The notes under the pieces: generated by a model | What the model was told of the DNA's origin: nothing | What the model saw: only the letters and a program-made list of their open reading frames with translations | Databases searched by the model: none | Shown here: piece by piece, positions 20,279-24,807 of the stretch | Layout: each line of letters opens with the position of its first letter | Position numbering within the stretch: the first letter of the stretch is position 1 | Origin: a virus | Strand: one strand, 5' to 3' | Virus record (IMG/VR): IMGVR_UViG_3300025769_000506 | Span: 1 to 31,383 of that record | Length of the DNA stretch: 31,383 bases | Translations under genes and position numbers: made by a program

Positions 20279-20482
20279 TTAATCAACAGGTTTATCATAA
20301 TCATCTTCAAAACATTTGTTGGTGCAATAAACATATTCTTGGTTGTTATGTAAAATAACTTTTAGTGATCCTTTGCAAGTTGGACAATAATAATATTCAT
20401 ATCCATCTATCTCTACAACAGAACCAACTGGTGCTTCTTGAACATAATTTTTAATTTTATATTTTGGATTATATGCTCTCAT
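20279..20482 (-). CDS. Small zinc-ribbon protein
   Basis: A 67-residue protein with two Cys pairs, C-P-T-C and C-T-N-K-C, about 18 residues apart in a Tyr-rich beta context: a single zinc ribbon. I place the start at ATG 20482, which overlaps the upstream stop as ATGA; the frame also has an ATG at 20491. Tight coupling to the PP-loop protein suggests a partner or nucleic-acid-binding subunit, but no target can be named. Confidence 0.7.
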   Translation of the reverse strand: MRAYNPKYKIKNYVQEAPVGSVVEIDGYEYYYCPTCKGSLKVILHNNQEYVYCTNKCFEDDYDKPVD

Positions 20483-21303
20483 ACTCCACACATTCCTTCA
20501 CACTCACCTGTAAACAAATCTAATTGTTCGTGTTTTTCTTTTTTTACTGTAACATTTTTTAGATCATTGTATTGATGTATGCTAACATCATAAATATCAT
20601 CTTGGAACTCGTCTGTTTCTTTGTATGCTTTTTTTACTTTTTGTTCATATTCTAATGCTTGATTAAATTCATCAGGACTATTTTCTTTTAGATCTTTCCA
20701 AAAAGAAAGACTGTGGTACGGACAAAATATACAAGCTGATCGTGGAGGTAGATTTAAATTGTTATTTGTAAACCACTGCAAACAATCTGCTCTACTTATA
20801 TTATTATCTATTAAAGGAAAAGTATGTTCGATCCATTCTACTTGTGATGGTTTCATTCTTGTTGCTTCATCAGTAGATATTCCAAGCATTAAATGTATTT
20901 GAACATTAGTTTCTTTGTTTTTTATTTTACAGTGTCGTCTTAAAAAAGTTCTAATAGGTTTAATTTTAAAATCATTAGTACATCCTCTTGGTAGAAAACC
21001 TTTTCTAATACCATTCTTAAATAAGAAAACTGGTATCGTTGATCCACCTATATATTTTTTTCCTGTAACTTTAGAAGTCCTAACTCTTATGGCTTCTTCT
21101 GCTAAATTACCTTTGGATATTCTATAAACAGGATAGGGCAGTTGTGTTTCCAGCCAATCTAGCCATTGATAAACAGCTTTAGGTTCTCCTTGTGTATCTG
21201 CAAAAACAGCAAAGTCTGGCATAGGTTTTAGCTCACCCTTAGCAAACATCATTGCTAATGTAGAACTTTGTACTCCAGCACCTAAAGATAAAACATTGAT
21301 CAT
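20479..21303 (-). CDS. PP-loop (PAPS-reductase-like) adenine nucleotide alpha-hydrolase family protein
   Basis: A 274-residue member of the phosphoadenosine phosphosulfate reductase/PP-loop superfamily. The N-terminal P-loop is the variant S-L-G-A-G-V-Q-S-S (residues 6-14), which binds and adenylates in this group. Cys 108 (R-G-C-T-N-D-F-K), the pair C191-x2-C194 in S-A-C-I-F-C-P-Y and the C-terminal C-E-G-M-C-G-V (C268, C272) are family-conserved and may hold an Fe-S cluster or zinc. True sulfate reduction is unlikely in a phage; base or tRNA thiolation or nucleotide modification is more plausible but unproven. It is coupled by ATGA overlaps to the MazG-like gene before and the zinc ribbon after it. 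Confidence 0.85.
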   Translation of the reverse strand: MINVLSLGAGVQSSTLAMMFAKGELKPMPDFAVFADTQGEPKAVYQWLDWLETQLPYPVYRISKGNLAEEAIRVRTSKVTGKKYIGGSTIPVFLFKNGIRKGFLPRGCTNDFKIKPIRTFLRRHCKIKNKETNVQIHLMLGISTDEATRMKPSQVEWIEHTFPLIDNNISRADCLQWFTNNNLNLPPRSACIFCPYHSLSFWKDLKENSPDEFNQALEYEQKVKKAYKETDEFQDDIYDVSIHQYNDLKNVTVKKEKHEQLDLFTGECEGMCGV

Positions 21304-23113: not shown

Positions 23114-23127
23114 TTTTGTTAACTAAA
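23114..23127. promoter_or_regulatory. Candidate operator (TTTTGTTAACTAAA palindrome)
   Basis: A 14-bp palindrome around GTTAAC with one mismatched pair, placed on the expected start of the leftward SSB transcript. Its left part, TTTTGTTAA, recurs exactly at 23166-23174 inside the rightward promoter. Repressor sites shared by two divergent promoters fit the Cro-like gene next door. Confidence 0.45.
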
Positions 23128-23135
23128 GTATATCA
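23127..23135 (-). promoter_or_regulatory. Extended -10 promoter for the SSB operon
   Basis: On the minus strand TGA-TATACT (5 of 6 to TATAAT plus the TGN extension), with a weak TTGCAT 15 bp upstream. Transcription would start near 23120 and give a 20-base leader with the AGGAGG of the SSB gene. Confidence 0.5.
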
Positions 23136-23195: not shown

Positions 23196-23408
23196 ATGGA
23201 TCTATACGAACTAGCTAAAAAAAGAAAACAAGAGATTATAGCTACTTATGGTGGCAGAAAATTATCTAAAATACTTAAAATATCGCATCCAGCAGTGTCA
23301 AAATGGGAAGTAATACCCCCTTTTCGTGCATTTCAGATAGCACAGCTAGGTGACTTTAAGCTAGAGTATATAAGACCTGATCTTAATTTTACCCTTGAAA
23401 ACACTTAG
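23196..23408 (+). CDS. Cro/YdaS-like HTH transcription regulator
   Basis: A 70-residue DNA-binding protein. The helix-turn-helix is near residues 19-40 (G-R-K-L-S-K-I-L-K-I-S-H-P-A-V-S-K-W), followed by I-P-P-F-R-A-F-Q-I-A-Q-L and a C-terminal Y-I-R-P-D-L: the pattern of the YdaS/Cro family. It is divergent from the SSB operon and its promoter overlaps candidate operators, so it probably regulates both directions and itself. No CI-like partner or integrase is in the window, so lysogeny is not supported by what is visible. Confidence 0.8.
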   Translation: MDLYELAKKRKQEIIATYGGRKLSKILKISHPAVSKWEVIPPFRAFQIAQLGDFKLEYIRPDLNFTLENT

Positions 23409-23452
23409 TGTGAGGTGGCATCTCCTTGTCTATCTTCCTCGCTACCTCACAC
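23408..23452 (+). repeat. Long imperfect hairpin after the regulator gene
   Basis: GTGTGAGGTGGC (23408-23419) pairs with GCTACCTCACAC (23441-23452): a 12-bp stem with one G-U and a 21-base pyrimidine-rich loop. It begins at the last base of the regulator stop. No U-tract follows on either strand, so intrinsic termination is doubtful; as DNA it could extrude as a cruciform or be an origin element. Confidence 0.6.
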
Positions 23453-23461
23453 GCTTATAGC

Positions 23462-23507
23462 AGTGCCATGCGACTGCCATCAGTCTGCCATCGTTCTGCC
23501 AATGGCA
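23462..23507 (+). repeat. Four TGCCA(T/A) iterons at exact 11-bp spacing, ending in a palindrome
   Basis: TGCCAT starts at 23464, 23475 and 23486 and TGCCAA at 23497, each 11 bp apart, so all sites face one side of the helix. The last one is the left arm of the perfect palindrome TGCCA-A-TGGCA (23497-23507). The 11-bp period rules out coding. Directly repeated, helically phased sites beside a replication gene pair are typical iterons for an initiator; a regulator-binding array is the alternative. Confidence 0.7.
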
Positions 23508-23508
23508 A

Positions 23509-23569
23509 AAGATAGCTCTTCACCTTCACCTTCAACTTCACCTACATCTTCAACTTCAAACAAGATAGC
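23509..23569 (+). repeat. Seven CTTCAM hexamers flanked by AAGATAGC direct repeats
   Basis: 23518-23559 are seven contiguous 6-bp units: CTTCAC, CTTCAC, CTTCAA, CTTCAC, CTACAT, CTTCAA, CTTCAA. The array is bounded by two exact AAGATAGC copies (23509-23516 and 23562-23569). One strand is all pyrimidine-plus-A, so the region is strongly strand-asymmetric. It may be part of the origin (unwinding or primer site) or an enhancer for the promoter that follows. Confidence 0.6.
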
Positions 23570-23571
23570 CC

Positions 23572-23600
23572 TTGACAGCATACTAGGCATTAGCTAGAAT
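23572..23600 (+). promoter_or_regulatory. Near-consensus sigma70 promoter for DUF1376/primase genes
   Basis: TTGACA (23572-23577), exactly 17 bp, TAGAAT (23595-23600): 11 of 12 consensus bases at ideal spacing, the best sigma70 promoter in the window. Transcription would start about 23607, 15 bases before the ATG at 23622. It follows the repeat arrays directly, so an initiator bound there could control its own synthesis. Confidence 0.8.
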
Positions 23601-23621: not shown

Positions 23622-23984
23622 ATGAGAAAATCATCTAAGATAGAACAAAGTCCAGCTTTTCAATTTTATGCAAGTGATTGGGTAAGTAGTCCAGGTAGAT
23701 TAAAGATGTCATTAGAAGAACAAGGTGCATACATTCTTTTATATTGTCATTGTTGGGTAGGTTTTCAAATACCTTTTGATTATGAAGTCCTAGCTAGAAT
23801 GTGTAACTGTACTACTGACAAGATCCGTAAGATGTGGCCTAACATTCAACATATGTTTGAAGTAAAGGATGATCACATACATTGTATACAAGCAGAGGAA
23901 GAAAGATACGAGCAAGAGCTGAACAGAAAAAGAAAATCAAAAGCAGGAAAGAAAGGTGCAAAGGCTAGGTGGAACAGTGAGTAA
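23622..23984 (+). CDS. DUF1376 protein (putative replication initiator / DNA-binding)
   Basis: A 120-residue protein of the DUF1376 family, common at replication loci of phages and prophages. Its core is S-P-A-F-Q-F-Y-A-S-D-W (residues 10-20), M-S-L-E-E-Q-G-A-Y-I-L-L-Y-C-H-C-W and I-P-F-D-Y-E-V-L-A-R-M, a winged-helix-like fold. The C-terminus is very basic (R-K-R-K-S-K-A-G-K-K-G-A-K-A-R) and should bind DNA. Placed just after the iterons and overlapping the primase gene, it is the best candidate for the iteron-binding initiator; that role is inferred. Confidence 0.8.
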   Translation: MRKSSKIEQSPAFQFYASDWVSSPGRLKMSLEEQGAYILLYCHCWVGFQIPFDYEVLARMCNCTTDKIRKMWPNIQHMFEVKDDHIHCIQAEEERYEQELNRKRKSKAGKKGAKARWNSE

Positions 23985-24807
23985 TAGTTTTGGTGGAGTA
24001 CCCTATTACACAAACTGTTCTACCTATTTTGAATTCTTATCTATGTTTGGAGAAGAACATACCTTCCAAACATTTTGTGATAAGGGCAAAGACAAATCGC
24101 TTATCAAGCAACTACATGGAACAGTAAAGCAACACTTTCATGAGTTAGCAGATCTCAATAAGCGAGGTGCTGGTGTGTTCTTTACAGTTAACGAAACCGA
24201 TCTCCTTGGCAGGACAACAAAGCACATACAAAAAGTGAGAGCTGTATTTATTGACTTAGACGGAATCCCCTTGCCATCTGAGTTTGAATTGCAGCCTCAC
24301 TTAATTGTCAATACAAGTCCAGGTAAGTATCATTGTTACTGGCTAGTATCTGATATGCCACTAGAAAGTTTTACATTATATCAAGAGGCACTTGCTAATA
24401 AGTATAACTCAGATCCTAAAGTAAAAGATTTACCTAGAGTGATGAGAGTTGCTGGATTTTTTCACAACAAAAATGCCAGATACCCCATAAAGATACAAAA
24501 GCAATTACGATTACCAGCATACACAAGAGAAGAATTGAAACAAAAACTCTCTCTGCAAAGGCCAACGAAGCAAAAGATATCCTATGAAAAAACATATGTA
24601 GTAGATTATAACGGAAAATTTAATTATGGTGCAAGTAAAGGCGACAGACATGAGCAACTTGTAAGAATGTTAGTAGCCATAAAGAAACGAGGCGAGAGCT
24701 ACGACTATGCTAGAGAAGAAGCACTAAAGTTCGCAAGGGCTTGTGATCCCCCTGAGAACAATAGAGAAGTTATGTTTCAATTAAATGATATATGGAGAAG
24801 ATATTAG
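23956..24807 (+). CDS. RepB-like archaeo-eukaryotic primase (AEP) for replication
   Basis: A 283-residue primase-type protein. The AEP signs are G-V-F-F-T-V-N-E-T-D (73-82), the metal-binding F-I-D-L-D-G with D100 and D102, S-P-G-K-Y-H-C-Y-W with H126, and D-L-P-R-V-M-R-V-A-G-F-F-H-N-K (158-172). The C-terminal 70 residues (G-D-R-H-E-Q-L..R-E-E-A..F-A-R) are helical, as in phage primases with a PriCT-like tail. It presumably makes primers at the adjacent origin. The start is GTG 23956 (AGGA upstream) or, equally plausible, GTG 23977 (AGGTGG upstream, 8-bp overlap with the DUF1376 stop). No DNA polymerase gene is visible, so host polymerase is expected. Confidence 0.82.
   Translation: MQRLGGTVSNSFGGVPYYTNCSTYFEFLSMFGEEHTFQTFCDKGKDKSLIKQLHGTVKQHFHELADLNKRGAGVFFTVNETDLLGRTTKHIQKVRAVFIDLDGIPLPSEFELQPHLIVNTSPGKYHCYWLVSDMPLESFTLYQEALANKYNSDPKVKDLPRVMRVAGFFHNKNARYPIKIQKQLRLPAYTREELKQKLSLQRPTKQKISYEKTYVVDYNGKFNYGASKGDRHEQLVRMLVAIKKRGESYDYAREEALKFARACDPPENNREVMFQLNDIWRRY

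Follow-up and report, generated by a model that had tools for sequence, protein, structure and literature searches.

The window analysed here, a pelagiphage-like virus record of 31,383 bases (IMGVR_UViG_3300025769_000506), carries upstream of its DUF1376 gene a block of repeats that probably serves as the replication origin of this virus, with iterons read by the DUF1376 protein. This reading, drawn from sequence, stems from the wider anatomy of the block and not from the iteron array alone. A role of DUF1376 as the reader is suggested by three further observations. The terminal dyad and the hexamers of the block lie in the DUF1376 linker of L108, L111 and L213, as in lambda O and pSK41 Rep; several unrelated DUF1376 linkers carry repeats, often 11 bp apart and some beside helicase-loader or helicase genes; and the DUF1376 protein is modeled as a winged helix, for which initiators are the closest PDB structures.

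Among named phages, Pelagibacter phage EXVC032P Baldr is the nearest over the block stretch (68% identity). Its complete circular record shares the block, with TATAGCA/TGCCA iterons, the dyad TTTTGCTTATGGCAAA, CTTCAT hexamers and ACAAGATA, and differs from the window by an extra ORF between the block and the DUF1376 gene. GC skew of the window tracks gene direction and gave no origin signal, a point against the origin reading. The window also contains a PAPS reductase-like gene at 20479-21303 (phrog_424, E 5.7e-43).

An 11-bp iteron array upstream of the DUF1376 gene

Direct reading of the window places TGCCA at 23464, 23475, 23486 and 23497, in steps of exactly 11, and the last copy forms the dyad TGCCA-A-TGGCA (23497-23507), precisely as the original prediction described. 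A further half-site, TAGCA at 23458, precedes these copies and opens the register; the array ends 114 bp upstream of the DUF1376 gene (Table 1). The arrangement had been called too regular for chance, and the counts bear this out: two sets of three copies in 11-bp register with at most two mismatches were found, against 0.03 expected for the window composition, and none of 100 shuffles of the window contained two such triplets. TRF recovered the 11-bp tandem together with an adjoining 6-bp tandem, CTTCAC, at 23518-23558, which the original prediction had not mentioned.

Table 1. Features of the repeat block and its neighbouring genes in the window.
Feature	Position	Strand	Details
Candidate Cro operator	23119..23129	+	TTAACTAAAGT; putative; overlaps the -35 of the promoter upstream of the Cro-like gene
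Cro/YdaS-like repressor gene	23196..23408	+	PF14549, E 2.1e-10
Hairpin	23408..23452	+	12-bp arms GTGTGAGGTGGC / GCTACCTCACAC; 21-base pyrimidine-rich loop
Iteron array	23458..23507	+	TAGCA-G-TGCCA, then TGCCA at 23475, 23486 and 23497; 11-bp register; end dyad TGCCA-A-TGGCA
Hexamer array CTTCAN	23518..23558	+	41 bases, 17 C, no G; strong strand bias
CAAGATA motif	23562..23568	+	closes the hexamer array; CAAGAT in 65/67 DUF1376-found loci (L001-L067)
Promoter of the DUF1376 gene	23572..23600	+	TTGACA-17-TAGAAT; 11/12 consensus matches
DUF1376 protein, 120 aa	23622..23984	+	PF07120, E 2.7e-8; PHROG 'primosomal protein'
RepB-type primase gene	23956..24807 (exact start uncertain)	+	PF16793, E 6.2e-12; phrog_10514 DNA primase

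Conservation of the block among relatives

Relatives were assembled from 80 contigs found through DUF1376 and from loci returned by DNA-pattern searches. Of 192 collected stretches, 14 were dropped because they had too little upstream sequence or fewer than two half-sites, which left 178 usable elements overlapping heavily between searches. Clustering at below 80% identity reduced these to 46, and 44 remained after L108 and L111 had been set aside as coding.

Across the 44 non-redundant, non-embedded elements, half-sites of the form TGC[TCG]A/T[AGC]GCA occur 262 times, where dinucleotide shuffles give 56. Pairs on the same strand with a spacing of exactly 11 bp number 85, compared with 0.38 (maximum 4) in the shuffles. 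At least one such pair is present in 40 of the 44; the spacing, whose lack of conservation in related genomes had been named as a refutation, is thus kept. Spacings of 7-10 and 12-15 bp are rare, with 0 to 5 pairs each, while those of 22, 33 and 44 bp are likewise raised. Same-strand runs in the 11-bp register reach four copies in five elements, including the window, and seven copies in one. The strict dyad TGCYA-N-TRGCA lies beside the hexamers in 19/44 elements, and under a looser definition in 30/44; the right half-site is swapped for TGCGA in some lineages. The terminal palindrome of the original prediction is therefore common among relatives, but not universal.

The period of the array also bears on a possible reading as the target of a lambda CII/YdaT-like activator that binds direct repeats on one face. 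The lambda CII site, TTGC-N6-TTGC, is close in geometry to TGCCA-N6-TGCCA, and in both the Rac and the PfDIW6 module the DUF1376 gene is directly preceded by a YdaT or CII-like gene. CII sites, however, have a 10-bp period, whereas the elements contain 85 pairs at 11 bp and 5 at 10 bp. Activator sites abut the -35, whereas here the conserved hexamer array separates the iterons from it, and no CII-like gene was recognised beside the array by eye (as opposed to profile search). We regard such an activator as a very improbable reader.

The order of the block is conserved: hairpin, iterons, terminal dyad, CTTCAN hexamers, CAAGATA, promoter, DUF1376 gene and RepB-type primase gene. The hexamer array, proposed here as the opening or loading region, is 41% C and not AT-rich, unlike the opening region expected of an iteron-type origin. 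Its length was counted in those 44 of the 46 elements whose stretch contains CAAGAT. Measured from the first CTTC to this motif, it equals 1 modulo 6 in 31 of the 44, mostly 43 bases, which indicates that hexamers are gained and lost mostly as whole units. Modulo 3, the block length is 1 in 31 and 2 in 10 of these relatives, from which we conclude that the block behaves as non-coding in the window; since the length is no multiple of 3 in 41/44, the array as a coding repeat was ruled out. The original prediction had held the array incompatible with coding. That description suits the non-coding-like block of the window but not the family as a whole, as the dyad and hexamers are translated in L108, L111 and L213.

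The hairpin of the window, situated between the Cro-like gene and the iterons, has a folding energy of -20.7 kcal/mol as RNA. A strong hairpin occupies the same place in 28 of 43 elements, compared with 5.7 in shuffles, with differing arm sequences; one of the 44 elements had too little upstream sequence for this count. The structure may be a terminator of cro transcription, or a priming hairpin for the RepB-type primase. Its conservation upstream of the iterons would also fit a packaging, recombination or conserved untranslated RNA element, to which we assign only a slight chance: the dyad-hexamer part lies within coding sequence elsewhere, a search of Rfam gave no match for the block, so the conserved-RNA reading through Rfam was dropped, and we know of no element of these kinds that combines 11-bp and 6-bp periodicities. 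A tRNA reading was likewise dropped, as none was found.

DUF1376 as the candidate reader of the iterons

A search with the DNA pattern alone returned 119 loci with iterons and hexamers. A DUF1376 gene lies downstream of the element in 115 of them, and in two the element is inside the DUF1376 gene, after the domain; the array is thus next to or within the proposed initiator gene in 117/119 loci, and the other two are cut by a contig end within 100 bases of the element. Among the pattern matches without iterons, DUF1376 is absent in 10 of 11. The embedded forms, with the dyad and hexamers in the DUF1376 linker, are found in the viral contigs L108 and L111 and in a Gemmatimonadales MAG (L213/L222). 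There, its in-frame translation gives IVLPMAKN, IGLPMAKN or IVLPMAND and then poly-Ser, soon after the DUF1376 domain. L213 is the only one of 13 GTDB contigs with the dyad-hexamer pattern to have it in a DUF1376 gene; the other 12 were judged, from their sequence, to be chance matches.

The protein of the window scores 34.5 bits against the DUF1376 profile (PF07120), with a curated cut-off of 30.1, and is proposed as a candidate iteron-binding initiator consisting of the N-terminal domain only. Two neighbouring proteins, Cro-like and DUF1376, had originally been named as possible ligands of the array. Were the former the ligand, the array would be a multi-site operator through which the Cro-like repressor controls the DUF1376-primase operon. 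Its gene adjoins the array, and repressors typically bind cooperatively to arrays on one face of the helix. P22_Cro was detected in 18 of 20 whole records chosen for the search, so the two proteins are not told apart by co-occurrence alone. The two records without a P22_Cro match, however, are those of L108 and L111, where the element is retained within the DUF1376 gene, and in the window the array stops 64 bp short of the -35 of the DUF1376 promoter.

A second motif, with the sequence TTAAC[CT]NAA[GC]T in either orientation, also argues against the array as a Cro operator. It was found in 11 of 21 tested relatives, and in 9 of these 11 a site lies 20-58 bases before the DUF1376 start; the remaining sites are mostly 230-850 bases upstream, and two are far downstream. 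In the window the motif occurs once, over the -35 of the promoter upstream of the Cro-like gene. The Cro-like protein therefore probably acts on TTAAC-type sites and not on the iterons, and we consider its control of the operon through the array unlikely. Of the two candidate ligands, DUF1376 is thus the favoured one: we infer that it reads the iterons, and that the Cro-like protein reads the TTAAC motif.

Repeats in DUF1376 linkers beyond pelagiphages

To extend the comparison, 22 DUF1376 genes were examined, from 17 named phages, E. coli Rac, phage zth2-2, L108, L111 and the MAG. Several of their linkers contain repeats that differ in sequence from the pelagiphage iterons. In the linker of Moraxella phage Mcat20, CCGTTCAAC is found at 384, 395, 417 and 428, and AACGACCGTTCAAC recurs at 11-bp steps. 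Cores related to the Mcat20 repeat are present in the linkers of Pseudomonas UFJF_PfDIW6 and Sinorhizobium phiLM21, and the Rac ydaU linker has GTTCAAACA at 394 and 427 and inverted at 449.

Periodicity was assessed in 21 of the 22 genes, Vibrio 1.183.O being dropped because it nearly duplicates BA3; AQ1, whose frame is broken, had already been excluded. Linker 6-mers recur at lag 11 in 12/21 genes, compared with a mean of 3.0 and a maximum of 7 in synonymous shuffles, none of 200 reaching 12. Recurrence at other lags was seen in 9 genes (22), 9 genes (33) and 11 genes (7). As neither 11 nor 7 is divisible by 3, repetition at the protein level alone does not account for these lags. Lag 11 is raised inside the DUF1376 domain as well (9 of the 21 genes, shuffle mean 2.5), where some runs are iteron-like, so that the domain is an imperfect control. 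Lag runs of at least 8 bases are more frequent in linkers (10) than in domains (3), and C-terminal parts have none. Counting 7-mers repeated in different frames was a noisy test; with 9-mers the total was 346, while shuffles averaged 51 and reached at most 156, and the score was zero in 6 of 15 genes (PfAn1, Vibrio 1.183.O, VpaPGA, HTVC112P, RHph_TM3_3_3 and L111). AAGATC at the end of linker repeats is mildly enriched, in 8/22 genes (shuffle mean 3.5, maximum 7).

Two individual linkers are worth recording. That of the DUF1376 gene of a cyanobacterial (Leptolyngbya) phage (L249, 780-1505) contains CACCTT hexamers ending in AAAGATC, similar to the pelagiphage hexamers. In a Vibrio phage (L240), the depositor annotated positions 1861-1890 of the linker region as a CRISPR spacer; the segment probably consists of origin-like DNA rich in repeats.

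Of 21 named-record loci, 7 (L234, L235, L247, L249, L251, L253 and L254) have next to the DUF1376 gene a gene that is annotated as a helicase loader, replication protein P or a (replicative) helicase. The other 14 have no such annotated neighbour, their neighbours being mostly unannotated 'hypothetical' proteins. Rac ydaV is annotated as a putative ATP-binding protein only. Residues 173-285 of YdaU match proteins annotated as 'DNA replication protein O', the rest of those proteins being without a match.

Predicted fold of the DUF1376 domain

The model of the window DUF1376 protein, built from a 33-row alignment (pLDDT 87.7, pTM 0.74), has the appearance of a winged helix that is followed by a long helix at the C-terminus. 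Its best PDB matches are 4pta, 4pql, 5kbj and 4pt7, titled MDR initiator, DNA binding protein, Rep-DNA complex and initiator, respectively (Foldseek E 0.006 to 0.02; VIA Z 7.8 to 7.3). The top four VIA matches are plasmid-type initiators, and we take these entries to be staphylococcal RepA_N proteins; the DnaD N-terminal domain follows at VIA Z 6.1. Even the best match is modest (Foldseek E 0.006, VIA Z 7.8), in the range of common arrangements. Such scores would be insufficient alone for homology, but they agree with the other lines of evidence. A PDB sequence-profile search with the DUF1376 alignment gave no relative, with three insignificant matches, and Pfam at E up to 0.01 gave DUF1376 only, without a RepA_N domain in the window protein.

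A proposed origin and its wider meaning

The computed features of the block are its repeats, their conserved 11-bp spacing, a conserved order of parts, a constant link to DUF1376 and the in-gene occurrence in relatives. The original prediction saw the array as a docking array, with the palindrome as a dimer site that nucleates its filling. Iterons on one helical face, read by a neighbouring protein and ending in a dyad, are supported here, and the palindrome may nucleate the filling; the wider anatomy points to a replication origin. We propose that the winged-helix DUF1376 protein would bind TGCYA/TRGCA half-sites that follow one another every 11 bp along one face of the DNA, the terminal dyad being closest to the opening region. 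Filling of the array would strain the adjoining strand-biased CTTCAN array, which may then open or act as a loading strand. The RepB-type primase of the next gene would start synthesis together with a helicase, as the gene order suggests.

A broader hypothesis, which we lean towards with less confidence, is that DUF1376 is a widespread family of iteron-reading initiator domains, that its low-complexity linkers (poly-Ser, TDTD, NQEP etc.) are translated origin DNA, and that in pelagiphages the origin left the gene, the initiator was reduced to the N-terminal domain alone and its place was taken over in part by a primase of plasmid type. If so, a domain of unknown function found in phages of many hosts would gain a function, a pelagiphage group would gain a testable replication origin, and the persistence of repeat-rich linkers in phage initiators would be explained. 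Pelagiphages would then hold a naturally non-coding copy in which DNA-level constraints are directly readable; such copies part DNA from protein constraint, which the in-gene origins of lambda and pSK41 do not. Among the matches listed in a literature search on DUF1376, YdaU, Rac oriJ and the replication origins and iterons of pelagiphages, which took in few subscription journals, no description of this origin was seen.

Comparison with known systems

The helicase loader P is encoded beside the initiator gene of phage lambda; in the window a primase gene takes that place. Lambda carries its iterons and an AT-rich tract in the middle of gene O, as described in PMC7466680. The window is lambda-like in having several iterons adjoining the opening region and a phage initiator as the proposed reader, and the C-terminal part of YdaU is common to O-annotated proteins. 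The element lies inside the proposed initiator gene, as in lambda, in L108, L111 and L213; in the window the origin is outside and upstream of the gene. The window gene further differs in encoding the N-terminal domain only, the half-sites are of 5 bp at 11-bp spacing, and a pyrimidine hexamer array replaces the AT-rich tract.

In the Rac prophage of E. coli (racR-ydaS-ydaT-ydaU-ydaV), a YdaS-type regulator is likewise found upstream of the DUF1376 gene, and the linker contains repeats. In contrast to the window, the Rac initiator is full-length with an O-like C-terminal part, and its iteron is GTTCAAACA. Rac carries an active origin, oriJ (PMC3945230), whose map position on Rac was not found in our literature search.

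According to the account in PMC5703833, pSK41 Rep uses its N-terminal 120 residues to bind four boxes that lie within rep; ori DNA encodes its linker, and its C-terminal domain makes contact with primase. The window resembles this RepA_N system in its repeats and may share a winged-helix N-terminal domain of about 120 residues, and differs in having no RepA_N Pfam match, no C-terminal domain and an origin outside the gene. RepA of the PLE satellite, likewise the initiator of a mobile element, is described as having its iterons in non-coding DNA (PMC7145576); it belongs to the RepA_N family, however, and the iteron sequence and layout differ from those of the window. Together, these comparisons suggest that the window resembles the lambda, pSK41 and PLE systems while being a strict member of none.
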